Source: Sinohyriopsis cumingii (lineage: Eukaryota; Mollusca; Bivalvia; Unionida; Unionidae). From it: a stretch of DNA of 64,000 nt. Within the stretch, counting starts at the first letter, position 1; each line of letters opens with the position of its first letter. The notes beneath the pieces were generated by a model. That model saw only the letters and a list, made by a program, of their open reading frames with translations. It had not been told where the DNA came from and ran no database searches. This document shows, piece after piece, positions 4,243 to 49,224 of this stretch. Position numbers and translations under genes: made by a program. The stretch covers positions 130,643,428 to 130,707,427 of the forward strand of contig CM068838.1 in the NCBI GenBank assembly GCA_028554795.2, given 5' to 3'.

Positions 4243-4251
4243 TTGTATAAC

Positions 4252-4940
4252 ATGGATGTCATTTCTTTCTCAGCGATACGAAAACAAGAGCTAGTAAAAC
4301 ATATTTCAGCATTACCGAATTCCATCACAATGATAATAATAGGTCCGTCCGGATCGGGTAAGACACAATTGTTACTCAACCTAATAATGAGATGGCCCAA
4401 GTGGGATAAGTTGTATTTGGTATCACCATCCGTTGATGATCAGTGGTGTTATAATATACTTAAGGATTTTAATGAAAACTCAAACCTGTTAAATGAAAAC
4501 GGTGATGACGTTATTAATTTTATGACTGATATTGATGAAGCACCATCCGTAGACGACGTTGATGGATTTAGTAATAATTTAGTAGTATATGACGACGTAA
4601 TGCTGGACAAACAATCGAATCCAGCAAGAATATTTTTCGAGGCAGACATAAAAATACTGATGTGATTTATGTTACTCAACGATATATACAAATACCTAAA
4701 GTGATCAGAGATAACTGCAATATTTTAGTTGTGTTTAACGGAGTTGATACACATATACTAAGAAATAGTCATCAGACTTGGTCTAGTGGTGATATGGATA
4801 TCACTAAATTTAAAAACTCCTTTGGACAAGTTCAGTCTGTTTCGCACGGATCTATAACAATATACTTTAACGACCCTAGATCACGATATTGTACGGGACT
4901 TGATAAAATCTTCGGATATAGCAGCAGAAGAGGTGAATGA
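4252..4940 (+). pseudogene. Polinton A packaging ATPase (FtsK/HerA type), frameshifted
   Basis: In Polintons and related viruses this ATPase pumps genomic DNA into the capsid. The start at 4252 (MDVISF) gives Walker A GPSGSGKT at residues 31-38 and a Walker B-like VVYDD at about 111-115, preceded by hydrophobic residues. A frameshift near 4640-4665 separates this part from the C-terminal part, which carries VIYVTQRY, a sensor-like strand ending in T-Q, and stops at 4938. The combined length of about 230 codons is typical of the family. The copy at 61.2-61.9 kb has the same N-terminal pattern (FS..K.E.VKH) and the same C-terminal DPRSxYxTGLDKI pattern. Confidence 0.85.
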
Positions 4941-18072: not shown

Positions 18073-20400
18073 AATGATGACAATATCAATACATTTGCAG
18101 CGTGGAACAAAGAAGGTGATGCCTGGTGACCAGAAGGTGACAAACTATCAGTAAATTAGATAATCATAGTGGCATCGGCGAAAGTTTTGGATGAAATGCA
18201 AGAGAAATAGTTGTCATGTACATTTAAACACAACGTAGAATGCACAATAAAATCTGTAAGAGTGTGCTTCTAATTTGCATTATGGAAAAAAGGAACAGAA
18301 CAGATTGGGACATATAAAAAAAATTATGAACAAAACAGTGTTTGCTTGTATCTTGGCTTATTTTTTAACTTGCCTAACCATTAGACCATGTGAACTAAGG
18401 GCATGACATTGCATCTGTCATACATTGTGTGTCTGTCAGCAACTGCTATTTGACACATTTAACATCTACTAGACCAATACTGAACTAAAGCTTTCGCAGA
18501 GAAATAGCAGAATGAAAGGTTTTCGAATTTGTTCAAATAATGCTATTCCATCATCGAATATGTTTAGTAAAACAAAATGCAACAAACAAAAGCGCTTCTA
18601 AATGCTGTAGTGGTCAACTTGTCCAGTGCTGTTCCCATTCAAGCAATATGTAAGTGAATTGCACATTAACAGGCTTTGGCACGTGTAAGACATCAGCTTG
18701 ATATGACATATAGAAATTTAAGTCTGGTGCGTTCACTAAATTAAGTCTAAGAAATTATTTGTTGTTGGGTCTTAATATTACCTAATTTCATCCAATTGTT
18801 CAAACTTAACAATGAAAACTTGATCAAACATGGTTGTCATATGTAATATTTATGATATGCATAAATGGTAACTCTGCTATAGTTGGGGATTGGGCAGCCA
18901 TTCATGGTTTTGAGGGTGCAATATGACTCCAAGACTGCTTTCAAAGGGCATGTTGCTGCATTTTTCTGTTCCAAAATATGCGGCTATGAGATCCAAGACA
19001 GTGCTAACACAAGTTCAAGCACCCCACCCCCGTCAAGTCATATCATTCCTCGAGAACATACAAAGAGTAGTAGCATCCTGAGGGGTAAGCCATTCCCTAT
19101 GTCATTTAAGAGTTTTGTCCATTATCTGTATGGCCATGTAGATAAATGAATTGAAATGCTTTGAAGCACAGTTACTTGTGTTCGACTTAACTCTTGGGAG
19201 CACTGGTAAGTGTGGAAAATGCCGCATCCTTAATAACTGCAAAGCTGACATTTAAAAGCATTTGAAGAGTGGGGGATATAACCTCTGTAAGTAGTGTGTA
19301 ATATGTCTAACAAGATTTGTGCTATATAAATGATATGGTTTTGACTCTTTTCAACCTCAACCCCCTCACCAATTTTAAAAATGAAGAGACTAAGTAAAGC
19401 AGAATATACACAAAACATAGTCATTTCAGTAATTAATTTATTATTTCTAACCTGATTGCAACAAGGGTCCTTAAATCAATCATGTTGCTTGTATTTCAAG
19501 AATAGTTGGGTTTTTTACTAATATGGATGACATTTGCGTGGGTGAATCCATTATTTGCAGACAACAGGAGCTATGTAGTTCACTATCTTCGATAAGCTCT
19601 GAAGATAGGTAACTTTGAGTTGCATTGTTTTGAATCCATGTGTGTAAGAGTTTTGTGTACACTTGTTTGAGAAATACAAAAAAATAGATATTGCAGATAT
19701 TGAGTTGATAACTCGTGCTATTACCTTACACATATGTGTTAACAAAGAAGCGTCACCACTACTCTCAGAAATGAACATTTCCAGGAATCAGATAAGGACG
19801 GTGAACAAGCTCATTCGTTGCAATGAAAATAAAATGTTTAAATTTATGCTTTTGAAAATCTTAAAATACAAAATGAGAGCAAACTGCAATGTCTGTTCAG
19901 TACATGAGAGAGTTCATTACTAACAAATATAAAATGGACTATTAACAGTAATCTATACGTGCTTTACTCTGGAGTTAATGGTATAGTTGTTAACTCTGGT
20001 ACACGACGTTCAGGGTTGATTTGCAGCCACATAATATGGATTCATATTTGTGTTCCTATCAATTTTGTATTTACATTATAGCTGGTACTTAAATTTTGTG
20101 GTACAAAGCATCCTATCATTTTCATAGAAGAATCGTTATATGTGTGTGCTTAAATTTGTGGTTAAAGGAATGAAAGAAATCCACAAAATTAGTACACATG
20201 GATTTTCCTAGCTTTTTACATATGTTCCTGAGCACACGGAATTGGAAATAATTGCACATAATGCAGCTTAAATTAGCCATTTTTAAGGTCACAGTACTTC
20301 ACTAGCAATTTCATTTCTCTATTTGTCACTGTCTAAACTGGACATTATAAAATTGCGAAAATACACAATCGACAACCGGAATAGATTGTGAATTTGGCCC
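14250..20400. other. AT-rich DNA, no gene recognised
   Basis: Open frames are short and unsupported. Microsatellites occur at about 17320-17348, (CT)n, and 18024-18070, (GAT)n; the latter creates poly-Asp and poly-Ser frames. A short TA run lies at 15847-15860. The 88-codon plus frame at 18883-19149 has mixed, protein-like composition and could be an exon or the end of a repeat, but no motif or convincing splice site fixes it. Another plus frame at 19663-19923 is similar. Confidence 0.55.
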
Positions 20401-20429
20401 ATACAAAAGGCTACCAAATTAGTGAAGTG

Positions 20430-20562
20430 GGGCGATTTGGCGACAATGGGAATTAGCATTAAAAAACACCCTGTGCCTGTTTAGCGACAAGGGAAATTTA
20501 ACATTAACCACCCTGGGCCTGTTTAGCGACAAGGGAAATTAACATGGGAAATTTAAACAGGG
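20430..20562. repeat. Three imperfect direct repeats of about 44 bp
   Basis: The phrase GCGACAAGGGAAATT (first copy GGCGACAATGGGAATTA) recurs three times, near 20437, 20484 and 20526. It is followed twice by a CACCCTG(T/G)GCCTGTTTA linker. The repeats lie just outside the first recognisable gene of element B and are followed by a (CA)n tract. They may be part of the element's terminal region, but a matching right end is missing. Confidence 0.6.
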
Positions 20563-20609: not shown

Positions 20610-20649
20610 AATAGACATTGGTTTTAAAAAGGTAGGCATGAAAGTCAAT

Positions 20650-20686
20650 CTCTTTTCGAGATCTATGAGTGGCCCTGAAAAGGGCC
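20650..20686 (-). terminator. Histone-type 3' end (stem-loop plus HDE), minus strand
   Basis: Read on minus, 20686-20671 is GGCCCTTTTCAGGGCC, an ideal histone mRNA stem-loop: a six-bp stem with a TTTC loop. It is preceded by AAA and followed by ACTCA. About 9 bases on comes a purine-rich CTCGAAAAGAG box (to about 20650), matching the histone downstream element bound by U7 snRNA. It lies about 30 nt beyond the stop of the minus-strand ORF at 20716-20946, the geometry found in replication-dependent histone genes. A near copy in opposite orientation lies at 21761-21799. Confidence 0.8.
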
Positions 20687-20694
20687 TTTGGTTT

Positions 20695-20723
20695 TATGTT
20701 AATATACCCTTAATATTAACATA
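20695..20723. repeat. Perfect 11-bp inverted repeat next to the stem-loop
   Basis: TATGTTAATAT (20695-20705) and its exact reverse complement ATATTAACATA (20713-20723) are separated by seven bases. They lie between the stop of the minus-strand ORF and the histone-type stem-loop. Confidence 0.75.
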
Positions 20724-20946
20724 GAGGGCATCTGTGAGATCTTCTTCTTCTCAAGCTGAGCCTGACTGCAGGGCCATATACTAACACCCTCTTTAGGCAT
20801 CCTTGCCTCTCCACATATATCCTTCGCATCCACAGGCTGGTGTCTGTTATATGGACAATAGTCCAGTTGGATCGGACATACATCGGTATGTCCGTGCGGA
20901 ACATCATTGATGAGATTAAAGTCGACAATTCAACTGTGGTCCACAT
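20716..20946 (-). CDS. Short ORF with histone-gene-like flanks, product unknown
   Basis: The 76-codon minus-strand frame starts at ATG 20946. Upstream, on the same strand, are a TATAAATA box (20998-20991), a GCATTCC cap-site-like box (about 20976) and an inverted CCAAT box (21035-21040). Downstream, about 30 nt past the stop, is a perfect histone stem-loop with downstream element. The predicted product has a basic C-terminus (RLSLRRRRSHRC) but shows no histone fold sequence, and no family was recognised. The ORF may be a decayed gene whose flanks are better preserved than its coding region. It forms a divergent pair with the gene at 21208. Confidence 0.45.
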   Translation of the reverse strand: MWTTVELSTLISSMMFRTDIPMYVRSNWTIVHITDTSLWMRRIYVERQGCLKRVLVYGPAVRLSLRRRRSHRCPLC

Positions 20947-20989
20947 GTTGGGGTGCCGAGAACAGGTGAAGGAATGCAGTGAACTGCGC

Positions 20990-21145
20990 TTATTTATAGG
21001 TAGAGGAAGGATTGAAACTGATTGAATTAGTTCACCAATCCAAACACGCGTTACAAAATTCAGTCAGCCCACGTCCTATCCGAAGAGAGTAGTCCGTGTC
21101 GTCATGTGGCCTATACAGATTCGCTAGCGCCTGTGCGCAGTCAAT
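20990..21145. promoter_or_regulatory. Divergent promoter region between the two histone-ended genes
   Basis: For the minus gene, TATAAATA reads from 20998 to 20991, with CCAAT at 21035-21040. For the plus gene, a weaker TATACAGA lies at 21112-21119 with CAGTCA (21138-21143) about 26 bp downstream as a possible initiator. The layout, two genes back to back with a shared region of about 200 bp, is the one used by animal histone gene pairs. Strength and start sites are inferred. Confidence 0.5.
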
Positions 21146-21207
21146 CCATGCGGCAGTTTTTCAACACGACGGAAACTCAGAAAACGATAAATTAGTGTGC
21201 ACCAGCC

Positions 21208-21741
21208 ATGGAGACTACCCAAGGGAACCCGGACTTACTTTCAGAAGAGGTGAACTGGGAATTTGTCGATTTTCTTACCTCGCAAGAATTTCTTCCGGAA
21301 CCTTCGTCATCTTCTCCTTCATTATCGCACGTGGAAAATTTTAGACAGAGACAGAAAGAAGAATTGGAGAAATTTATACAACAGCAAAAGGAAGCGGAAC
21401 AAGCTTTTCTCCTACAGCAACAGCAGCAGCAAACAGAAGAGGTAAGAAAGAAACAACAACAACAAGAAGCAGCAGCAAAGAAACAAGGGTGTGAAAGTCA
21501 AACGGTCACGGTACTGTTAGACATTTTAGCAGAGTTAAGAAGTCTGAAACAAATGTATCAGACTTCTTTATTACGACCGAAGAGAATACAACCTTCCCGA
21601 GCTAAACACTCCAACCCTGTAACTAAGCCTACCGTACCACCCTTAGTGATTTTAACCACATCATCATCATCAACATTACATAGTCCAGAAGTAGGCCTTG
21701 GCCATGGCAAAGGCTTAAGACAGTTAAAGTTGATTGCTTAA
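21208..21741 (+). CDS. Gln-rich coiled-coil protein with a histone-type mRNA 3' end
   Basis: The intact 177-codon ORF has a strong start context (GCCATGG). Residues 1-45 are acidic (EEVNWEFVDFL). Residues 46-95 form a Gln/Glu/Lys-rich coiled coil, then comes a short heptad-like LLDILAELRSL, then a basic, Ser/Thr/Pro-rich tail. No enzyme or DNA-binding motif was recognised, and it is not a histone. It lies at the left of element B, upstream of and pointing towards the other genes. Its stop is followed 20 bp later by a histone-type stem-loop instead of a poly(A) signal. The function is unknown; a small regulatory or scaffold protein of the element is possible. Confidence 0.65.
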   Translation: METTQGNPDLLSEEVNWEFVDFLTSQEFLPEPSSSSPSLSHVENFRQRQKEELEKFIQQQKEAEQAFLLQQQQQQTEEVRKKQQQQEAAAKKQGCESQTVTVLLDILAELRSLKQMYQTSLLRPKRIQPSRAKHSNPVTKPTVPPLVILTTSSSSTLHSPEVGLGHGKGLRQLKLIA

Positions 21742-21760
21742 ACTCACCCCTACCCCCAAA

Positions 21761-21799
21761 GACCCTTTTCAGGGCCACCCATGTCTCTCGAAAAGAGAT
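21761..21799 (+). terminator. Histone-type 3' end (stem-loop plus HDE), plus strand
   Basis: GACCCTTTTCAGGGCC (21761-21776) is preceded by CCAAA and followed by ACCCA. It is the canonical histone stem-loop with one weakened pair (A opposite C at the second position). The CTCGAAAAGAGAT box at 21787-21799 is a good histone downstream element. About 50 bp around it is a close inverted copy of 20646-20692. The next gene on this strand starts 780 bp later, so the signal ends the 177-codon gene only. Confidence 0.8.
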
Positions 21800-21930
21800 A
21801 GACTTTCAATTGCCAATAACTCAAAAAAAAACATTTTACCCCTATAGTACGTGTGAATGATGGAGTGTGTGTGTAAGTATAGCTTCTTATTTTAAAATCA
21901 AAACCCAAAGACACTTACCTTTATATCTAA

Positions 21931-21936
21931 TTTATT
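21931..21936 (-). terminator. AATAAA poly(A) signal for the CCHC gene
   Basis: On the minus strand AATAAA reads from 21936 to 21931, about 57 bp past the end of the zinc-knuckle gene. It contrasts with the histone-type ends of the neighbouring pair. Confidence 0.5.
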
Positions 21937-21992: not shown

Positions 21993-22543
21993 TCATAGAC
22001 TTCTTCTGTCTCCTTGTTTACTCTCTCTGTTTTTCAATTTCTTCACAGTTACAGTCCTTTCCTCCTCTTCCTCCTCACTTTCTTCCCTTCTTCTTTTCTT
22101 CTCCTGTTTCTTTTTCTTCGCCTGTCTGCTTTCTTCCTCTTCTTCCTCTCTATCACTCCTATTCTTCTTCCAGCTCCTCTTGTTTCTTAGGGCAATCTGG
22201 AGACCAGTGTCCTTTTTCTTGACAATGATAACAGGTATCTTGACTTTTGTCTCTTTTAACCCATGTTTTGCTTTTTTGACGGCCTGGACACTCTGAAGAC
22301 CAATGCCCTTTCTTCTGACATATATAGCAAGTATCTTGACTTTTATCTCAATAGGAGGGTGAGTAGTCCCTCTGCTGGTCTGAAGAAAATTTTCAGATGA
22401 CCCCTCGCAAAGCTCTGATGAAAAGTTCGATTTGTGTAGTCTCGTCCATCGTTGTGCTCTGTTTGAGAGCGAAATGAATAGTGGAAGGACAAGACACACA
22501 CCCTTTCTATACGCTGGTCTGTCATGATTATAAAGTAACCCAT
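21993..22543 (-). pseudogene. CCHC double zinc-knuckle protein gene, frame-broken
   Basis: Two zinc knuckles can be read on minus: CYICQKKGHWSSEC (22329-22288) and CYHCQEKGHWSPDC (22233-22192). Both fit C-x2-C-x4-H-x4-C exactly. They are embedded in a duplicated 96-bp unit, each copy introduced by DKSQDTC. Such knuckles bind single-stranded nucleic acid. The knuckle frame has stops upstream, while a longer frame at 21993-22499 covers the acidic, Glu- and Lys-rich C-terminal tail. One or more frameshifts therefore separate the parts. A plausible N-terminus (MTDQRIERVCVLSF) starts around 22525. The gene is convergent with the 177-codon gene and divergent from PolB. Confidence 0.65.
22529..22535 (+). 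promoter_or_regulatory. TATA box before the DNA polymerase gene
   Basis: TATAAAG lies 51 bp before the ATG at 22580. The spacing matches the TATA boxes before the ATPase (54), the basic protein gene at 30293 (45) and the gene at 31308 (49). Confidence 0.55.
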
Positions 22544-22579: not shown

Positions 22580-25500
22580 ATGATGAAACGATCCAATTCA
22601 TTCAAGAAGAAAGAAGAAGAAGAAAGTAAGAGGCAGAAACGTGATCTATCGCCTCGTACCAGGGCTGAAGTCTTGGCACAAATTCATTCCAGTGATTTTG
22701 AAGAGGACATGAGTGAACCAGAATCCAAACCCAGAGAGTTTTCCTCTAAACAAAGTTCACCACCCTTAGACAACCCTGAAAAATACTATTTCATTCGAGA
22801 GACGGAAAAGCGTCCCTCTAGAAAATTTAGAAACACGGCTTACAAATACACGGTGAAGTTTAAAGATTGCAAGTCCAAAGTACACTTAGAGAAAGCAGAA
22901 GGGTTCATCACCGAGATGTGGGATTCTTTGCTCACCACACTCAAGCGACAATGTCAACCCAAAGAAGACGATCGCTTGAGACTTTCCATACAACACGACG
23001 GCTTGAAATCCCCTGTTTGGATCGAGTTTAGCAGCCCTGCAGAATTGACCGCTTCCCAAATCATGGACAAGATTCAACACGTACAACAATCCAATGACCA
23101 GTTTGACATCCCTGATGGAAAAGCCACACTGGACATGACCCACGTTTCTCCTCCTCAAGGGACCGGACAGCGCAAAAAGGTCTTATTGGTGAACGGTCTT
23201 CGTAACACCAAAAAGAGTCTCGTCCAAATTCATAACCCTCAAGACCAGATGTGCTTAGCCCTAGCAATCGTCGTGGGATGAACCTATACCAATAAGAACG
23301 ACACGGCAGAATGGAAAAGAGCCTGGAAAACTATTCAAAAATCGGACCGAGCCAAACAACAAAACGAAGCAGAACTCCAGTTGCAACAAACTGGTCTCTC
23401 CAAAAACACAACCTGTGGCATTTCTGAGCTGCAAAAATTGCAAGATATCCTAGCTCCACTCTAACCTTGAAAGTGCACACTCAAGAAGTGCGCGGGCCTC
23501 TATTGTTTCGAGGGAAAGGTTTTAAGGATGGAAAATACATTCACCTATATCATCACGATGAACATTTCGACACCATTACCAGTATCACCGGATTCCTGGG
23601 ATACAGTTATTGCTGTGAGAAATGTGACTATGGCTATAACAATCGAGAGCAACACAAGCATTGCGAATCGAAATGCTCAGGATGTTTGGCCTCTCAACCC
23701 TGTCTGAACGAAGGGCAAGAACGAGTGCATTGTCCTGCTTGTCTGCGCACGTTTGTCAGCCCCGCCTGTTACCAACAACATTTGAAGACGCAAAGTTCAC
23801 AGCAGAAATGTGCTTGTCACCTCCTGAGATTGTGCCCTACCTGTGGACACGATCTATGTACCAATAATGTCAAGGCAGACGTATGTCGAGGAAAGAAAAA
23901 ATGTCACATTTGTCACCACATCGTGGACTTGGAACATCAATGCTACGTGCAAAAATACCATCCCCAACAAGAGAAAGAGGATGGTCACAAGAAGAAAAAA
24001 GACAATTTCATCTTTTTCGATTTTGAATGCATGCAAGAGACCGGCATTCACATTCCTAATTTCTGCGTGGCTGATCGAGCGTGTGAGAAGTGCATTCTAG
24101 AACATATCTTCAGTCATTGCCCTCACTGCAGTAAGATTCCTGGAGGACTTGAAAAAATCGTTCGAGGACCGAACACGCTAGCCGATTTCGCCCGATGGGT
24201 CTTAGACCCCATCGACAAGACATGGAGCCAAGAGGACATCGAATGTTACGGAGATTGTCATCGTCATGCCACAGTCATGGCCCACAATTTCTCGGGATAC
24301 GATGGACAGTTTCTTCTCAGATATTATACGGAACAAGGCACCAAGCGTCCTAAAGTCACTTTGAACGGAGCCAAAATCATTTTCATGCAAGTGGGACAAG
24401 TACAGTTTAAAGATTCAATGAGTTACTTGGCCATGCCTTTGAGTCGAATGCCTAAAACGTTTGGAATGACAGAAATGGCTAAAGGGTACTTTACAAATTT
24501 TTTCAATACGGAAGCCAATCAACATGCCGTTCTATCCCATTTGCCTCAGGCTCACTATTACGACCCCGACAAAATGCGTACCGAACAACCAGAAGCTTTC
24601 TACGCTTGGTACCTGGCTCACGCCTCGGACCCTTTCGACTTTCAGGCAGAAATGTTAAAGTATTGTCGTTCCGACGTGGACATTTTACGGTGATGCTGTG
24701 GAAAATTTCGAGAACTGTTCATGGAACAGGGAGGGGTGGATCCTTTGAAAGAAGCTTGCACCATTGCCAAAGCATGTTCCTTTGTCTACCGACAACGATT
24801 CATGCCTGAAAACACCTTGGCTGTCATCAGTCCTCAATCGACCAACTATGTCAAACGTCAATACTCGGTCAAAGCCCTATGCTGGTTACATTACTTGTGC
24901 GACAAGGAAAACAAATGGATTCAGCATGCCCGCAACGGAGGGGGCGAAAGGACAATCGGAACGCATTCGGTCGATGGCTGAAACTTAGAAAACCCCAAGA
25001 TCGTGTACGAGTTTAACGGTTGCTTATTTCACGAATGCCCCGTCTGTTATCCTGATCGTGGCACTAAAAATCAGTTTTTACAACGAACCATGGAAGACTT
25101 GTACCAGGTCACTTGTCAGCGACTCCTAAAGTTAGAACAGGAAGGATACCAAATGGTGGAAATGTGGGAACACGAGTACGATCACCGTTTGAAAACCGAT
25201 CCCGAGTTTAAATGCCTCGTGGAAAGTTACCAGTTCATGAACCCCCTGAATCCGAGGGATAGTTTGTACGGAGGAAGGACCAATGCCACCTGTTTGCTGT
25301 ACCAAGCCGACGAAGCGAAAGGAGAAGAAATTAAATACTTGGCCGTGTGTTCTCTGTATCCCTACGTGTGCAAATATTGTCGCTTTCCTTCAGGACACCC
25401 ACAATTGTTAACGGAACACATCGACCTGAAAAACATTCGACAATACAAAGGCCTGATCAAGTGCAAAGTTTTGCCTCCCACCGACTTGTACCATCCCGTG

Positions 25501-26668
25501 TTACCTCACCATTGTCAAGACAAACTGATGTTTCCTTTCTGCCTTACTTGTGCCGAAACGTGCAACCAAGACCAGCCTTGTCAGCACACCCAGGAAGAAC
25601 GTGCCTCGACGGGGACGTGGGTCAGCATAGAATTGTTCAAAGCTCTGGACATGGGATACCAACTGTTAGAAGTGTACGAAATTTGTCACTTTCCCAAGAC
25701 ACAACAATACCACAAGGATGACACCACGCAGAAAGGCATTTTCGCAGACTACGTGGATGCCTTTTTGAAACTGAAGCAAGAAGCCAGTGGCTATCCTTCA
25801 TGGTGTCACACTCCCGAAGACCGAAAGACATTCAAAGAGAAATACTGGACACAAGAAGGCATTACTTTAGATCACGTCGAGAAAAACGAAGGCAGGCGAT
25901 CGTTTGCCAAAGTGATGTTAAATTGCTTGTGGGGAAAAATGACACAACGACCTTGTTTACCCAAGACGGAATATTTGACAGAACCTTCCCGCTACTTTCA
26001 GATGATTCACGACAAAACCAAATTTATGAAACACGTGGACGTCGTTCGCGAGGATTTGATCTTAGTCAATTACGAAGAAGATCTGGACTTTGTAGAAGCC
26101 GACCCCTTTGGAAATGTCATCATTGCGGCTTAAGTGACACTCATGCTCGCTTAAAATTGTACGAAGCTTTAGAACCTTTAGGGGAACGTGTCCTGTACTT
26201 TGACATGGACAGTTGCATTTACATCGATCACCCAACTCAACAGCACCCTGACATCGAAGGAGACTGTTTAGGAGCCTGGACAGACGAGCACCCCGACGTC
26301 AAGATTCTAAGTTTCGCAAGTGGCGGACCTAAAAATACGGCTATCAATACCGGGACAAACAAGGAGAAGTGCACACGAAGTGTAAAGTGAAAGGATTCAC
26401 TCTGAAGTATCGTACCAGTCGAATGGTGAACTTTGGCGTATTGAAAGAAGCCTTGCAGTCTGGAAAAGATGAACACTTTGAAGTGACCACCTATCAATCC
26501 AACCAGATTGTACGTTTACCCACTCACCACATCGTCCATCGACCCTTGGAAAAAGTTTATCAAATCGTGTACCAGAAGCGAGTGCGACTTCCCAGTCATT
26601 TCACGTTACCTTATGGACACGTCGGTATTGGTCTGTATATTAAAAGGAACTCTAGGCAAGATCGATAG
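22580..26668 (+). pseudogene. Protein-primed family B DNA polymerase (Polinton/adintovirus PolB)
   Basis: PolB replicates the element's linear DNA by protein priming. A charged N-terminus is followed by a Cys/His-rich zinc-binding region (about 23600-23950). Exonuclease motifs follow: Exo I FFDFECMQ (about 24010), Exo II HNFSGYDGQF (about 24282) and Exo III YCRSDVDIL (about 24661). Polymerase motif A reads AVCSLYP (25342-25362), where the metal-binding aspartate expected at the first position is alanine (GCC). Motif B is KVMLNCLWGK (about 25910) and motif C is FDMDSC (about 26200). In-frame stops occur at 23279, 24691 and 24979. Frameshifts lie near 23465, 26110-26133 and 26340-26370. The total of about 1,360 codons is within the usual range for Polinton PolB. 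The gene is not functional as it stands. Confidence 0.93.
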
Positions 26669-26697: not shown

Positions 26698-27340
26698 ATG
26701 AATACTTTCAGAGAAACACAAAACAAGTTCAGACAGGCACAATTCAAGTTTGGGGCCTCTGAAGTAGAAAGCGATTGTGAGCCTTGCGATGGGAGCGATG
26801 CTGTACGCTGTGACCTTAGCGATGCCGTAAAGCATCATGGGAACTTTATTCTCACTACTACTACTACTACTACTACTACTACCCCTATCATGGAAAGTGA
26901 TGCTGTGCGTGTCAAACCTGAGGGATGCAAAATCGATGTCCCTGGTCATCGTGGACACTTTATTGGGTTTCATGGTCAATGTGGATGTCAACCTTCACGT
27001 TTACCCACCTACGGATGTCATCCAGCCCTGAGCAAACTCCTGTCCATGTCACCCTTCCCTCATCGAAACGAACCTGTGAAAGACGAATATTCGTTCCCTG
27101 TGCGTTTGTCTAAATATTGCGACTTTGAAAATCGTCTTCAATCGTTCAAAGGAAAATGGCCTAATTATCTGGGAGGACCAACCCCCCGAAGAATTAGCCA
27201 GAGCCGGATTTTTCTACTTGGGCGAAGGGGATAAAGTCAAGTGCTTCAGTTGCGGTGTGTCACTTCACCACTGAGAACCGCAAGATTCGGCCTACCTAGA
27301 ACATGATCGATGGTCACCGAATTGTCATTATTTACCCTTA
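26698..27340 (+). pseudogene. BIR-domain (IAP-like) gene, frameshifted
   Basis: BIR domains bind caspases or other apoptosis and immune-signalling proteins and mark the IAP family. The N-terminal 140 codons are unassigned and contain a Thr run from a (CTA)n tract at about 26857-26882. The domain starts with an R-x-x-S-F-x-x-W-P pattern (27128-27155). A frameshift near 27185-27195 follows. The zinc site C-x2-C-x16-H-x6-C then fits exactly: TGC 27242 and 27251, CAT 27302, TGT 27323. The tryptophan codon expected between the cysteines and the histidine has become TGA (27272). No RING finger was seen after it. The gene lies between PolB and the tandem accessory genes, so it travels with the element and is not a flanking host gene. 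Confidence 0.8.
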
Positions 27341-27759: not shown

Positions 27760-27780
27760 ATTGTACGGACTGACCTATTC

Positions 27781-28245
27781 ATGGATACTTTACAAGAGAA
27801 CATTCGTGCTTTGCCTTTTGAGTTGAGAGAACGCATTTACCGAGAACTGGTCAAAATACAAGTGAAACGTAAAGAACAATTGCATCCGTTACGTCAAGGG
27901 TGGTTGAACCACTGGTACCTGAATGCTATAAAAGGACTGATTCGTCTGAAAATGTTTCATTGGGCAGACCTTTATCAACTATCCCGTCGTTCAAAGAAAC
28001 GTTTTGTTACTGATGATTCTATTTGCTACCAGGTAGACCTACTGCAACAAATTTCAGAGGAAGACGAGTTAAAGGAATACCAACATCTTTTACAGAATGT
28101 CACCTTAGTGGAAGAGGAAACTTCTAAACGAACTGTAAAGTGCAAGTTAGTGACTAAACCATTTAGATTTGCTACTGGAATAAAACCATCTCTGACCAGA
28201 CAGTACACTTATTGTCTACGACAACAAAAACGTTTTATAGTATGA
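27781..28245 (+). CDS. Accessory family member 2 (F-box-like N-terminus)
   Basis: An intact 154-codon ORF begins MDTLQENIRALPFELRERIY, with LPFELRERIY as the F-box-like opening. It is followed by a conserved block KRKEQLHPLR, a HWYLNAI block, an acidic EEDELKEYQ segment and a basic C-terminus. The gene at 28253 repeats the same blocks in the same order. The seven bases between stop and next start sit inside a repeated sequence (TGACCTATTCATGGATACTT precedes both). Soluble, with no signal peptide or membrane segment. Function unknown. Confidence 0.65.
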   Translation: MDTLQENIRALPFELRERIYRELVKIQVKRKEQLHPLRQGWLNHWYLNAIKGLIRLKMFHWADLYQLSRRSKKRFVTDDSICYQVDLLQQISEEDELKEYQHLLQNVTLVEEETSKRTVKCKLVTKPFRFATGIKPSLTRQYTYCLRQQKRFIV

Positions 28246-28252
28246 CCTATTC

Positions 28253-28708
28253 ATGGATACTTTACAAGAGAACATTTTGGGTTTGCTTGAGGAATTGAGA
28301 GAACGGATTTGCCGCGAACTGGTCCAAATACAAGTCAAACGTAAAGAACAGTTGCATCCATTACGTCACCGGTGTTTGAACCACTGGTACCTGAATGCTA
28401 TAAGAGAACTGATTCGTCAGAAATTGTTTCAGTGGTCAGACATTGTTCAACATTTCGAGGTCGCCAATGATCGACATGTTCATAATTTTGGTTACTTCGA
28501 GATTCACCTAGAGCAACGCATTGAGGAAGACGAGTTAAAGGATTACAAAGGTCTATTACGTGGAATCTGCTTAGCGGAAGAGGAAACTTCTAAACGAAGT
28601 TTCAACTGTAGGTTACAGTTTGGAGCATTTAAATTTCCAAATGGAGAACGAAGATCTCTGACCAGAAAGTACGTGTATTGCATCCAACAAAAAAAAAAGA
28701 GAATATAA
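28253..28708 (+). CDS. Accessory family member 3, tandem duplicate of member 2
   Basis: An intact 151-codon ORF shares with its neighbour the start MDTLQENI, the blocks IQVKRKEQLHPLR and LNHWYLNAI, the acidic EEDELKDY segment, the EEETSKR block, and a C-terminus of the form SLTRxYxYC. The clean frame and strong similarity suggest a duplication of about 470 bp that stayed under selection for some time after it happened. The middle part (FEVANDRHVHNF) is the most divergent. Function unknown, as for member 2. Confidence 0.65.
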   Translation: MDTLQENILGLLEELRERICRELVQIQVKRKEQLHPLRHRCLNHWYLNAIRELIRQKLFQWSDIVQHFEVANDRHVHNFGYFEIHLEQRIEEDELKDYKGLLRGICLAEEETSKRSFNCRLQFGAFKFPNGERRSLTRKYVYCIQQKKKRI

Positions 28709-29506: not shown

Positions 29507-30231
29507 ATGGATACCTCTGTTGTCTCTGATCCCTCTTCCTCTGCTGTCAAAGTCATCGACGAACACTTAGATCGTGCCAGTTGGGAAGCTCTGTATCTTC
29601 GCCATCCCTTTAACATGCTCATTGCTGGACCTAGCCGTTCAGGCAAAACCAAATTTGTCAAACGTTTGATCGAACATAAACATCATTTGATCGATCGACC
29701 ACCTCAGCGCATCGTGTGGTGTTACAAAGAGTGGCAATCCGCATACAGCCTCTTGCGAGAAATTCAAGGCGATTATATCGTGTTTGTGGAAGGCATTCCT
29801 AAAGAAGACGATGGCATCGTCTCTGACTCCTGTCAAACCCATTTGGTCATTTTCGACGAAATGTTAGGAGAAGACGAAGACGAAATTAAACTTTGGTTCA
29901 CGCGCAAAGGGCATCACCGTAATGCCAGTGTCGTTTACATCACCCAAAATTTGTTTCAACAAAGTAAAGCCCATCGCACCATCAGTCTCAATGCGCATTA
30001 TGTGGTCTTGCTTAAAAGCCCTCGAGATAAATCGCAAGTGCAAGTCTTAGCTAAACAGTTAGGAACGCCTTGGCTGAGGCGTACGACGATGCCACTCAAA
30101 CTCCACACGCTTATTTACTCGTCTATTTGAAACCTACGACTCCCGATGATTTGCAATTTCGTACCCAATTGTTTCACCACTGGTGTCAAGACGGAGGGCC
30201 TGTCCTGTACACGTCTCCGTCTTCGACTTAA
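29507..30231 (+). pseudogene. DNA packaging ATPase (FtsK/HerA type), one frameshift
   Basis: This ATPase drives genome packaging in Polintons and adenovirus-like viruses. It has Walker A GPSRSGKT at residues 41-48, Walker B LVIFDE at 113-118, and a sensor strand YITQN at 144-148, in the usual order and spacing. The frame runs open to 30130, but from about 30070 the neighbouring frame carries the proper C-terminus, ending at TAA 30229. One small indel therefore separates the last 50 codons. About 240 codons is normal for the family. The motor residues are intact. It differs strongly from the ATPases at 4.2 and 61.7 kb, which makes B a separate lineage. Confidence 0.9.
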
Positions 30232-30292: not shown

Positions 30293-31262
30293 ATGACGTC
30301 TCTTCAGTCGCATCTTCCCGTCAAATTGATTCTGCCTTGTATGGTATCAGTCGAGAAAAAAATCGACAAATACGGGCTCGTGTCTTAGAAGCTAGTCTCA
30401 AAGAAGTCTTACGATGGTTCAGGGTGACAGCACGTCAATTACTGCGAGGGATCATTCAGATTCCTCATCAAACCAAACGCTTTTTTGCTCGAAACAAAGT
30501 CGCTTTCACCCAACTGGCCGATCCCCACATCGACACTCAAACCAAAAAACAAATCATTTTGAAACCTTGAGGGAGCGGTACTCTAGGACGTGTCATCATT
30601 CGCTCTCTCTTAAGATGGGATCCTAATTCTCCCAAAGTTCTCCCCAAGAAAAAAGAAGCCAAACGAAGCTCCAAGAAGAAGAAAAAGAGCCACGGTTGCA
30701 AGACCAGGACCCCAAGGAGACCCGTGTCTCCAAGAACTTCTCCAGTGACGGGACCCTCCTCTTACCGATCACCACCCCGGAAAAAGAAAAGCCCCCAGAA
30801 AAAGAAACAGAGAAAAAGTCCCCAGAAAAAGACAAGCCCACAGAAACCTAGTCGCAAGAGAGGCACTTCGGCCAGGACGCAACCTTACACTCGCAAACCA
30901 CGAACTGCAACGGCGGTGACCGCGTCTCCGGTAGCCTCAGGTTCATCCACTTCTCCGTTGATGACACTAAGAACTGAGAAGTACTTGGCGACGTTGATCA
31001 CACCAAGAACTTCTCCGTTGATGACCCCAAGAATTTCCCCAGTGGCAGGGCCCTCCAATTTAGCGGCAGTGGCCGTTGCTCACAAAGTACCTTCTCCTAA
31101 AATCAAAGTCCAAGAGAGATCGGGCATGTTATAGAGTTTACTGGATTTGTTCAACCAAGAACTGGCTCGATTTAGTCCGTTGCGTACCCCTGCACGACGT
31201 GTCATGCCTGTTCTCAAGTTGATATGCCGTAAAGACAATCAGTGGCGACGCGTTCCAGTATA
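30293..31262 (+). pseudogene. Basic virion/core-type protein (pX-like N-terminus, Lys/Ser/Pro-rich tail)
   Basis: Reading from 30293, a frameshift at an A-run near 30356 joins to a frame that stays open except for TGA 30568 and TAG 31132, and ends at TAA 31260. The first 100 codons have the pattern seen in the gene at 31601: a short helix, a basic LxRGxIxxPxxxK block, LADxxIDxxTKK, and a Gly/Leu-rich end (GSGTLG). I associate this pattern with the small pX-like proteins of adintoviruses. The following 180 codons are Lys/Ser/Pro repeats (KKKSPQKKK, SPRTSPV), fitting DNA condensation like adenovirus core proteins. The pX-like and tail parts share one frame and may be one protein. Confidence 0.6.
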
Positions 31263-31268
31263 AAAAAG
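31259..31268 (+). promoter_or_regulatory. TATA box before the small basic gene
   Basis: TATAAAAAAG overlaps the stop of the preceding gene and lies 49 bp before the ATG at 31308. Confidence 0.6.
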
Positions 31269-31307
31269 GCCTGCGACCAAGTAGGGGTATCAGTGAATTT
31301 CAAAAAG

Positions 31308-31562
31308 ATGTCACCTCCAAGAAGTGCACACCGTCACTATCGTCAAAAAAGAAAGAGACAAAGGCAGACTCGTCATCCGACAAAGCGCTTAGCCAAGCAT
31401 CGACGTTACCCTAAGAAAAGATACAGTCGTTCCAAGAAAAAGAGGCGTCAACAAAGGGGAGGATTCCTTGGCGATTTTGGAAAAAAAATTGTCACCTTTA
31501 TAACAAAGCGATATTCCCCCAAAAAAAAGATAAAATGGCGTGTGTTAAGTCATCGACGTTAG
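31308..31562 (+). CDS. Small, very basic core-type protein
   Basis: An intact 84-codon ORF starts MSPPRSAHR. About half the residues in the first 55 are Arg, Lys or His. A QQRGGFLGDFGKKI segment follows and then a basic tail. The RGGFL motif after a basic domain also occurs as RGGIL in the next gene, so the two are probably related virion or core proteins. The start is chosen at 31308 because the TATA box lies 49 bp upstream and the same AAGATGTCACC context opens the next gene. DNA binding inside the particle is inferred. Confidence 0.65.
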   Translation: MSPPRSAHRHYRQKRKRQRQTRHPTKRLAKHRRYPKKRYSRSKKKRRQQRGGFLGDFGKKIVTFITKRYSPKKKIKWRVLSHRR

Positions 31563-31600
31563 TGTATGTTTGGTGAATGTCCCGGAACCCACAAGCAAAG

Positions 31601-31999
31601 ATGTCACCCTCCAGAAAACATTCCTCTTCTAAACCCCAAGGAAAGAAAAGGAAAGGACTGCCTCCTCGTTTAGTCAAACATCGGGACATGTTATCTATAA
31701 TGTCCAAAGCTTCTCCACCCCTTCGAAAAAAACTCATTCAAGCGACCTCCAATGAGGTCAACGATACCGTGTGCGAATGTTGTTTGAACGTGTTGAAAGG
31801 CACGATCCCTTTGTCCAAACACCAGAAACAATGCTTAGGCAAACATCGTCACGTTCTTCGCCAAATGGTTCAAAAGAAAATCCCCATTTGTCAAAAAAAG
31901 ATGTTGGTCCAACGTGGAGGAATTTTACCCCTCTTGTTAGGCCCATTGCTGAAAGGTGTCTTGGGAACCGTTTTGGTAGGACTGGTGGGAGCAAGATAA
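31601..31999 (+). CDS. pX-like basic protein with hydrophobic C-terminus
   Basis: An intact 132-codon ORF starts MSPSRKHSSS. A basic leader is followed by a helical region, a VLKGTIPLSKHQKQCL segment, a second basic stretch, RGGIL, and a hydrophobic Leu/Gly-rich C-terminus. I recognise this architecture as the pX-like minor virion protein common in adintoviruses and Polintons. The exact role is unknown; adenovirus pX/mu is DNA-associated. It is one of the few genes of element B without a break. A TATA-like GATAAAAT lies about 70 bp upstream. Confidence 0.65.
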   Translation: MSPSRKHSSSKPQGKKRKGLPPRLVKHRDMLSIMSKASPPLRKKLIQATSNEVNDTVCECCLNVLKGTIPLSKHQKQCLGKHRHVLRQMVQKKIPICQKKMLVQRGGILPLLLGPLLKGVLGTVLVGLVGAR

Positions 32000-32755: not shown

Positions 32756-33545
32756 ATGGAGAAGGTGTTAGCCAGCATTTACTACGATCCCTCCCATCCT
32801 GCAGGTTACGCAGGTGTTCAAAAATTGTATCGTACTGCCAAAACGCGACTGAAAAGTCTCCATTTACCTCAAGTGCAACGATGGTTACGAGAACAAGCTA
32901 CTTACACTTTACACAAACCCATTCGACGCAAGTTTTCCAGAAGTCGCACCCGAGTGGAAGGCATCGATCATCAATGGCAAGCCGATTTAGCCGATGTCTC
33001 TCATTTGGCCAGCTACAATCGCGGCTACAAATATTTGTTTTGTGTCATCGACGTCTTTTCCAAATTTGCCTGGGTTGTGCCCTTGACTTCCAAATCGAGC
33101 AGTGAGTTAGTGCGAGCCCTGCAACGAGTGTTGAAACAAAGCGGTCGTCATCCTCTTCGATGGCAAACGGACAAAGGCACCTAATTTCTGAACCAAGCTT
33201 TCCAAAAAGAATTAAAGAAACGTGACATTCATTTTTTTACCACCGAGAATCCTGAAACCAAAGCCAGAATCGTGGAACGTTTTCAACGCACTTTGAAAGA
33301 ACGCATGTGGAAATATTTTACGCATCACCACACTCTGAAGTACATCGACATCTTACCGCACCTGGTGCAAGCGTACAACCAATCTTATCATCGAAGCATC
33401 GGACGTGCCCCGTAAGAAGTGACTCCCGACAACGAAGTGCTGGTGTTAGAGCGCCTGTTTGGTACGTCCCCGACGAGAGCTGTCCCCAAGAAAAGTGGAG
33501 TGTTGGTCGTAGGAGATTGGGTGCGCAATGGCAAAACCAAACGCT
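32756..33545 (+). pseudogene. Retroviral-type integrase (DD35E), stops and truncated C-terminus
   Basis: The integrase inserts the element into the host genome. The N-terminal part reads YYDPSHPAGYAG, then WLREQATYTLHKP. The catalytic triad is D77 (in WQADLAD), D139 (in WQTDKGT) and E174 (in RIVERFQ). The D139 to E174 distance gives DD35E. TAA replaces the codon after KGT (33182), where an acidic residue is usual, and another TAA follows RAP (33413). The SH3-like C-terminal segment begins (VGDWVRNGKTKR) but breaks into LINE sequence at about 33545, so the C-terminal domain and the right end of element B are missing. Confidence 0.92.
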
Positions 33546-47967: not shown

Positions 47968-49224
47968 TCAGCTATTCATAATGTCAGTCAATGTAGTCCT
48001 ACAATTCTCAACATTTGGGAAATCAATCAAGCATTTACAAAAAAATGGTCTCTCTGTTAGAATATCCAACAGGTCTTCACACCAAAAGTCACCTTCTTTA
48101 AGCACAAAGCTTTTGATTTTCCTGAGGGTAACATTTTTTTTGAATTTGAATTTGTCAAATATTTTTTTTGCCACAAGATTGTTGTTTTGTTTCTGATACA
48201 TAGTTTGGTAAATATAATCAGAAAAAACGAGACTGTCATTTTCATGTGTTGTTTGCTTCATCACCTCTTTCATATTCTGAAACAAATGCTGGTCATGTGT
48301 GACATATATCAGATGATAAATTGGTATATTTCGATGATCACAAATTTTAAATGTCAGTATGTGAGCCATCTGAGACCTCTGAGTTATCTGGTCTTTGTAA
48401 ATCTGCAAACACTTGTCTACATCACCATCCTGTAATTCGTGAGGCAGTTCATCATTGTTGAATCCATACAGACCCATTACTGCTTTTTTGCACTTTTTTG
48501 TGTTTCTAAAGCGGTTTACAGACCCACTCATAAACGTTATTAAAACTTCTTTGCGATCTCCAAAAAATGTTTCTATATGAGACATTGGTATATTGATTCC
48601 AAAGGGATCAACAAATGTGAATAGGTATCTGTTACCTAGAATGTTTGGTGACTGAATACATGAAAAGTCTGCAAATACAACATTCACACAAAATGGCAAC
48701 TTTTGATCAAAAAATGCTATTTTTATGATTCCATCATAATTATATGTTAATGTATAACTTATGCCATACAAATTTAAGACCCAGATGATGTTGTCAACTA
48801 ATGAGTCGTAACATGGCAAATTATTTTCTGAAAAAATTAAAATTATGTCTTTCTCCTGCATGAGAAGAACAGTCTCATTCCTGACCTTCATATAGCGATA
48901 TTTACATTTTATATGCTCTATATTTTGATTATTAACATCATATTTATATATCAGATTATTTTTTTCAATAAAAAAGTCCAATACAACTCGTAAGGTGATC
49001 AGTGGTGATCCATATTCTTCAAGTGATACTGGCCATCTGTTGCTATATTTGCCGCTACCAGCAAAGGCATCAAATATAATTGTTTGAGGCCTCTCCTGGC
49101 TGTTTTCCTCATGTCTGTGTGACTGCGTTCTATCTATAAATTCTTCCAGCTGTTTCTTATACATCGACCTCTTCGCTCTGCCATGAGGTGAATCAGCCAT
49201 GAAGAATTCTTTTTTTCTAGGCAT
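47968..49224 (-). CDS. TcmP-like protein (three-Cys-motif partner family), intact ORF
   Basis: The single uninterrupted frame of 418 codons starts with MPRKKEFFMADSPHGRAKRS. Motifs are FDAFAGSGKY (51-60), resembling the SAM-binding motif I of class I methyltransferases, YGSPLI (71-76), FTFVDPFGI (202-210) and EVLITFMSGSVNRF (226-239). This set is the one I know from bacterial TcmP proteins, which sit beside radical-SAM-like three-Cys-motif proteins and whose reaction is not established. The C-terminal half (240-418) has basic, helix-like segments. The start is supported by a stop eight codons upstream, and TTTTCAG just before the ATG could also be a splice acceptor. It lies in AT-rich host-like DNA with no Polinton genes next to it. 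An intact long ORF here suggests selection or recent arrival. Confidence 0.65.
   Translation of the reverse strand: MPRKKEFFMADSPHGRAKRSMYKKQLEEFIDRTQSHRHEENSQERPQTIIFDAFAGSGKYSNRWPVSLEEYGSPLITLRVVLDFFIEKNNLIYKYDVNNQNIEHIKCKYRYMKVRNETVLLMQEKDIILIFSENNLPCYDSLVDNIIWVLNLYGISYTLTYNYDGIIKIAFFDQKLPFCVNVVFADFSCIQSPNILGNRYLFTFVDPFGINIPMSHIETFFGDRKEVLITFMSGSVNRFRNTKKCKKAVMGLYGFNNDELPHELQDGDVDKCLQIYKDQITQRSQMAHILTFKICDHRNIPIYHLIYVTHDQHLFQNMKEVMKQTTHENDSLVFSDYIYQTMYQKQNNNLVAKKIFDKFKFKKNVTLRKIKSFVLKEGDFWCEDLLDILTERPFFCKCLIDFPNVENCRTTLTDIMNS

Follow-up and report, generated by a model that had tools for sequence, protein, structure and literature searches.

Histone-type stem-loops and HDE-like boxes at the 3' ends of the left-end genes of a Polinton/adintovirus-like element in Sinohyriopsis cumingii

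The element and its left-end genes

The window, that is, the whole stretch of 64,000 nucleotides of Sinohyriopsis cumingii DNA that was analysed, holds at 20.4-33.5 kb a decayed Polinton/adintovirus-like element with a DNA polymerase B (PolB) in pieces, an A32-type ATPase and an rve integrase. At its left, two genes diverge from a common promoter region, gene 1 on the minus strand and gene 2 on the plus strand. The features are as follows, with the basis of each in brackets.

20421..20551, left-end region common to other copies (blastn matches in sampled loci)
20464 and 20506, two 35-nt direct repeats in the left-end region (repeat search)
20639-20691 and 21756-21808, arms of a 53-nt inverted repeat, which are the two 3' ends (89% complementary)
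20650..20660, minus strand, HDE-like box of gene 1, CTCGAAAAGAG (sequence; likeness to the host histone HDE CTAGAAAAGA)
20671..20686, minus strand, histone-type stem-loop of gene 1, GGCCCTTTTCAGGGCC, 6 bp with the loop UUUC (RF00032)
20719..20946, minus strand, gene 1, a 76-aa ORF starting MWTTVEL, to 20716 in the full ORF (ORF, codon-position pattern)
20947..21165, short promoter region common to both divergent genes (TATA boxes)
20991..20998, minus strand, TATA box of gene 1, TATAAATA (sequence)
21208..21741, plus strand, gene 2, a 177-aa ORF (homologues, alignment; no Pfam match)
21761..21776, plus strand, histone-type stem-loop of gene 2, GACCCTTTTCAGGGCC, second pair broken (RF00032)
21787..21797, plus strand, HDE-like box of gene 2, CTCGAAAAGAG (sequence)
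22580..26133, plus strand, PolB region in pieces (22580-23281, 23467-24693 and 25003-26133)
29507..30130, plus strand, A32/FtsK-type packaging ATPase (PF04665, 25.8 bits against a cut-off of 22.8)
32756..33184, plus strand, integrase (rve), broken (PF00665, 39.7 bits)

The viral type B DNA polymerase, the packaging ATPase and the rve integrase by which a Polinton or adintovirus is recognized all occur in the element. PF03175 (DNA_pol_B_2) scored 36.1 and 76.2 bits on the PolB pieces at 23467-24693 and 25003-26133, and the piece at 22580-23281, for which the Pfam search gave no PolB match, is counted as PolB by position only. The best homologue of the third piece, 25003-26133, is P0001 (87%), and comparison of a PolB piece with the adintovirus of the Pimephales minnow (P0113) gave 37% identity. 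Further right, the integrase is cut off by sequence that reads by eye as LINE-like. The element's right end is cut off, and apart from the pair of 3' ends no inverted repeat of at least 30 nt was found in 18-40 kb. The ORFs at 31242-31562 and 31577-31999 gave no Pfam match.

Other reading frames were also observed. Adjoining the stem-loop genes, a minus-strand gene at 21996-22500 has two repeats that by eye resemble CCHC zinc knuckles; it carries an ordinary AATAAA at 21936(-), and its knuckle peptide was matched in 29 of 75 loci. Inside the element, a frameshifted plus-strand stretch at 26698-27310 is by eye BIR-like (inhibitor-of-apoptosis type), the ORF at 26698-27234 having no Pfam match, and a tandem duplicated gene pair at 27771-28705 (+), of 154 and 151 aa, shows 87% and 74% identity in two blocks and no confident Pfam match. 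Elsewhere in the window, a second A32-like ATPase ORF at 4243-4665 (+; PF04665, 23.2 bits against a cut-off of 22.8) is perhaps a remnant of another Polinton-like element. An intact 418-aa ORF at 47971-49224 (-) matches the three-Cys-motif partner protein TcmP (TIGR04474, 75.5 bits, cut-off 53), a bacterial family model, and sits inside an animal chromosome.

Histone-type 3' ends in the window

The stem-loop of gene 1 starts 29 nt past the stop codon and scores 39.8 bits with RF00032, over the gathering score of 34, in a match spanning 20646-20691 (E 3.3e-8 when all of Rfam was run on the window); its fold is -11.4 kcal/mol, with z -2.6. That of gene 2 starts 19 nt past the stop and reaches 27.6 bits, short of the gathering score (E 2.8e-4 when 15.5 kb were searched, 0.0011 for the window), and its fold of -4.3 kcal/mol (z -0.5) was equalled by 61 of 200 shuffles. 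No third RF00032 match in the window reached E 10. Searching the window for a stem-loop followed by AC and a purine box gave 2 matches, compared with a mean of 0.04 and a maximum of 1 in 100 first-order Markov resamples. The original prediction, which had called for a covariance search with RF00032, described two divergent ORFs with histone-type stem-loops shortly after their stops, one pair being weakened in the plus copy, and an HDE-like box behind each; the layout was confirmed in all these respects, with boxes at 20660-20650(-) and 21787-21797(+) and the second pair of the plus copy broken.

As a control, near-identical hairpins in two unannotated IMG/VR contigs (L066 and L068), taken for terminator-like, score 24.9 bits with RF00032. 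Because these come so near, the 27.6-bit stem-loop of gene 2 would be weak alone; it is carried by the neighbouring stem-loop, the HDE and the homologues.

At both 3' ends a further hairpin, whose loop is GAAAA, is predicted around the HDE box, at 20645-20663 (-) and 21782-21801 (+), and in gene A (described below) and some gene 2 copies the box in this hairpin reads CTAGAAAAGAAA. If formed, the hairpin might hinder U7.

Ordinary polyadenylation signals are distant. No AATAAA or ATTAAA occurs on the plus strand past gene 2 in 21.7-24.0 kb, and the nearest AATAAA past gene 1 on its own strand is at 19442, a variant hexamer, CATAAA, being found at 20698(-), ahead of the gene 1 stem-loop. Among the 75 loci described below, AATAAA lies between -60 and +200 of 24 of 110 exact stem-loops, which is probably chance in AT-rich DNA.

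Copies across the host genome

The host genome searched comprises 2.9 Gb. RF00032 gave 589,472 candidates in it, of which 75 were scored, all of them over the cut-off, so that this sample is biased to high scores. When the 75 places were fetched, 51 proved to carry gene 2, one gene 1 only, and 23 the genes A, B or C of a second subfamily, with no histone match beside any of them. The exact 18-mer GGCCCTTTTCAGGGCCAC occurs 18,491 times in the genome (9,108 forward, 9,383 reverse), against 0 and 0 for a reversed-pattern control and a chance expectation, by arithmetic, of about 0.1. Among the 100 18-mer places listed, 24 form 12 minus-then-plus pairs spaced 1,058-1,101 bp apart. Every 7th of these 100 was taken as a systematic sample of 15; one (L094) was already in the set, and the other 14, all within the first 10 Mb of one contig, were fetched. 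Each of them resembles an element copy: gene 2 is present in 11 and gene B in two, and the remaining one (L157) has only a short match to gene C and 346 nt of DNA likeness to an element copy. An HDE-like box was present in all 14, and histone similarity in none. Most likely, these places represent the left-end module of a Polinton/adintovirus-like family that spread to thousands of places in the host. In 23/23 copies whose stretch extends that far, the gene pair is followed by the first ORF of the PolB region (22580-23281).

In each divergent copy one stem-loop is the search match and the other is unselected, and conservation was assessed on the unselected ones. The gene 1 stem-loop is perfect in 22 of 23 unselected copies, with a pairwise difference of 0.0054; the corresponding values are 0.16 for the coding sequence and the stop spacer, 0.21 for the sequence downstream and 0.064 for the promoter region, and among 569 other 16-nt windows 1 has so low a value. 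The constraint on this stem-loop is clear. The HDE of gene 1 differs by 0.032 over the 11 nt at 20649-20659, compared with 0.159 in the adjoining spacer. The promoter region (20950-21160) differs by 0.064 among 23 copies and 0.090 among 29, and CTATAAATAA stands at the gene 1 TATA box in 49 of 52 aligned copies. Gene 1 itself, with neither a Pfam nor a histone match, shows 64-87% identity across sampled copies, and its pairwise differences at codon positions 1, 2 and 3 are 0.137, 0.071 and 0.315 (52 copies). Another frame of gene 1 was favoured by a codon-usage score, and the 76 residues have no homologue; the copies showed the ATG frame to be the coding one.

Gene 2 gave a different picture. 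Of its unselected stem-loops, 17 of 29 contain the perfect 16-mer, and the difference of 0.127 compares with 0.105 in the coding sequence, 346 of 656 windows being as low; without L082, L096 and L136, the rows that have no aligned gene 2 3' end, the values are 17 of 26, 0.047 against 0.058, and 296 of 656. Hence neither the 29 unselected copies nor the 26 aligned ones display conservation of this stem above background. The HDE of gene 2 differs by 0.020 over the 11 nt at 21788-21798 (26 copies) and the stop spacer by 0.022, both low. The codon-position differences are flat (0.074/0.075/0.090), so that most differences among the host copies look like decay after insertion. Conservation of gene 2 rests on 19 homologues among public proteins, at 60-83% identity. 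In the window the start found in relatives is lost and one in-frame stop lies upstream of the present ATG, and for these reasons this copy of gene 2 is a fossil. The predicted structure of its product is one long helix (residues 39-121) with a basic tail (AlphaFold2 mean pLDDT 69.4, pTM 0.28).

A second subfamily and covariation of the stem

In the second subfamily (23 loci) the genes stand in tandem, A and then either B (12 loci) or C (11 loci), gene A being matched in 20 of the 23. None of the three has a Pfam match above the curated cut-off. Their differences at codon positions 1/2/3 are 0.229/0.198/0.311 for A, 0.236/0.176/0.429 for B and 0.088/0.094/0.152 for C; genes 1, A, B and C thus show the codon-position patterns of coding genes. 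The stem-loop of B and C is of the GGCCC type. That of A, located in 19 of the 23 loci, is mostly AGCCCTTTTCAGGGCT, in which the first pair is changed on both sides; six pairs are kept in 16 of the 19, and 14 of these 16 read exactly so. The scan did not find a second stem-loop in four of the 23 loci, two of which also have no gene A. One locus of this subfamily (L129) shows a third stem-loop with an HDE, GGCCCTTTTCAGGGCT, at its positions 59-74.

For covariation, unselected element stem-loops, the gene 2 copy of the window and five host histone stem-loops were aligned, identical rows being merged into 35 distinct 23-nt rows; L082, L096, L136 and L109, the last with a one-base gap in its stem, were left out. 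The first stem pair is GC in 21 rows and AU in 9. Ten cells are changed on both sides, a number reached by 0 of 500 shuffles, and two pairs show two-sided change, which 26 of 500 shuffles reached. The two-sided change is mostly one inherited change and hence counts as few independent events. The stem is kept by compensatory change, as is expected of a member of RF00032.

Host histone genes and two alternative readings

An obvious question is whether the two 3' ends belong to a captured or invaded host histone gene pair whose coding parts have decayed, since two real histone-type signals lie divergently about 1.06 kb apart, as in an H2A/H2B pair. Located through H4 (114 matches, a few of them partial or broken), the host histone genes form a separate tandem repeat of about 8.3 kb, mostly in arrays on small contigs. 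One such repeat was read (L145). It contains H4, H2B, H2A, H1 and H3, whose stem-loops score 35.0-39.4 bits. Its HDEs, CTAGAAAAGA in H4, H2B, H1 and H3 and CCCGAAAAGG in H2A, are close to the element HDEs CTCGAAAAGA and CTAGAAAAGA. Against a decayed pair, this repeat has other flanks and other stem-loop variants, and the exact 18-mer GGCCCTTTTCAGGGCCAC is found in none of its five genes. Generic histones gave no tblastn match in 20.6-21.8 kb, and histone similarity is equally lacking in the 75 copies and the 14 sampled ones. Genes 1, A, B and C show coding constraint and match no histone, every copy long enough to show it has the first ORF of the PolB region after the gene pair, and the genes of the second subfamily are tandem rather than divergent. 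The claim that neither ORF encodes a histone was therefore borne out by both the tblastn and the Pfam searches, and the degraded pair, offered originally as the alternative, is refuted as a description of the present content and is hardly credible as an explanation. The element may still have acquired its 3' ends from a histone gene in the distant past.

A second alternative holds that the hairpins are DNA or general RNA elements, serving as an origin, in packaging or as a bidirectional terminator, and that their likeness to histone signals is convergence. Compensatory change would likewise keep a DNA cruciform, two IMG/VR contig hairpins reach 24.9 bits as described above, and the HDE box is able to fold into a hairpin of its own. 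The signal, however, stands behind a gene and in that gene's orientation, in its A-rich and ACC-type flanks, its spacing and its HDE it matches the five histone genes read in the host, and scanning IMG/VR for the fuller signal AAGGYYCTTTTMAGRRCCAC gave 0 matches. Convergence is thus considered improbable.

Relatives beyond this genome

Among the 19 homologues of gene 2, one, P0129, is without its stop, and its frame runs on into the 3' signal; the other 18 show no read-through. When the tail of P0129, PNIQWPISGPPTSLEKRYYVNCQ, was aligned with the translation of the 3' UTR behind gene 2 in the window, PYPQRPFSGPPMSLEKR*TFNCQ, the score was 73, a value that none of 500 shuffled tails reached (maximum 56); the part SLEKR agrees with the gene 2 HDE box. 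Between the tail and the window's 3' UTR, differences are required at 11 or more of 69 nt, and the codons of P0129 would allow an intact stem without proving one. Because it shows 62% identity to the nearest of 89 host copies, in an alignment that continues through the tail into the 3' UTR of that copy, P0129 is a distinct lineage, probably from another host, with the signal at the same place. When compared with the same 89 of the thousands of host copies, 18 of the 19 homologues have nearest-copy identities of 62-75%. The exception is P0121, at 99%; being so nearly identical to a copy in the host genome, it probably derives from the present species or a sibling of it and does not count as independent evidence. 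Taken with the 75 RF00032 places and the 14 sampled ones, P0129 bears out the expectation that related elements carry the stem-loop at these genes.

Scans of IMG/VR with PolB and gene 2 confirmed no relative, and neither did a gene 2 search of GTDB genome contigs. Stem-loop patterns in IMG/VR matched hairpins in 65 and 3 stretches of unannotated contigs, taken as terminator-like, and also matched, by chance, a single contig whose ORFs are phage-like. We know of no described Polinton or adintovirus with histone 3' ends. Among the matches listed by a search covering part of the literature, none deals with histone stem-loops in Polintons or adintoviruses, and the available text of PMC11071296 contains no occurrence of 'stem-loop'.

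A model for expression of the left-end genes

According to the available part of PMC5011920, non-polyadenylated mRNA of S phase is typically marked by the histone stem-loop and the HDE. From the position and structure of the signals, their presence in element copies, the conservation at gene 1, the two-sided pair change and the likeness of the HDEs, we infer that the left-end genes quite probably use the histone 3'-end pathway of the host, in which SLBP/U7 processing without poly(A) and S-phase timing would be expected. Each gene ends about 15-40 nt past the stop in a metazoan histone-type stem-loop and a purine HDE like that of the host histones. In the proposed model, the genes would be transcribed from compact TATA promoters. 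Host SLBP would bind the stem-loop and U7 snRNP would pair with the HDE, the pre-mRNA would be cut a few nt past the stem, and the mRNA would be exported without poly(A). SLBP and the processing machinery have their peak activity in S phase, so that expression of the left-end genes would coincide with the availability of the host's replication enzymes to a DNA element. The TATA boxes, the short stop-to-stem spacing and the lack of AATAAA past gene 2 up to 24 kb make up what reads, by sequence, as a histone-gene layout. On the host side, the Rfam U7 model gave no match anywhere, controls included, and a U7-like pattern gave 22 matches compared with 16 for its control, none being convincing among the 15 of 22 inspected.

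The signal may also work for another end, namely SLBP-dependent expression without poly(A) in the histone-rich cells of the germline or the early embryo, rather than for S-phase coupling as such. Activity in germ cells is needed for an element to reach thousands of places, and germline-specific control of histone mRNA is the subject of a preprint, 'SLBP-independent control of maternal histone mRNA' (PMC12803260), as far as its available part goes. This reading is rather unlikely.

Comparison with known systems and significance

In replication-dependent histone 3' ends, as in the element, a 6-bp stem with a 4-nt loop and an AC flank lies shortly past the stop and is followed about 11 nt on by a purine HDE, a layout also seen in the five host histone genes of the repeat read. 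Unlike replication-dependent histone mRNAs, the genes concerned are non-histone and reside in a mobile virus-like element, and one element lineage has an A-U first pair. With Polintons/Mavericks and adintoviruses the element shares PolB (DNA_pol_B_2), the A32-type ATPase and the rve integrase, and differs from the members known to us in the histone-type 3' ends of its genes. Viral histone-like proteins, such as 'Histoid' in adomaviruses, represent another case of animal DNA viruses touching histone biology; as described in the available part of PMC11071296, 'Histoid' is a protein homologue, whereas the present element shares the mRNA 3'-end signal only.

It is about an even chance that a lineage of animal Polinton/adintovirus-like viruses has brought its whole left-end module, while exchanging unrelated genes within it, onto the replication-dependent histone mRNA pathway of the host. 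The exact element signals (18,491) far outnumber the host histone genes (114 H4 matches, some partial). At least 18,491 exact signals face about 110 histone repeat units; if this reading is true, the RNAs of the element could be expressed in step with S phase and, provided they are expressed, could compete with histone mRNA for SLBP and U7. To our knowledge, nearly every animal mRNA that carries the histone stem-loop is regarded as a histone mRNA. The finding warns that an RF00032 match in an animal genome need not mark a histone gene. Its occurrence on several non-histone genes makes the stem-loop a ready test of whether stem-loop and HDE suffice for S-phase expression, and suggests a route by which DNA parasites may follow host replication.
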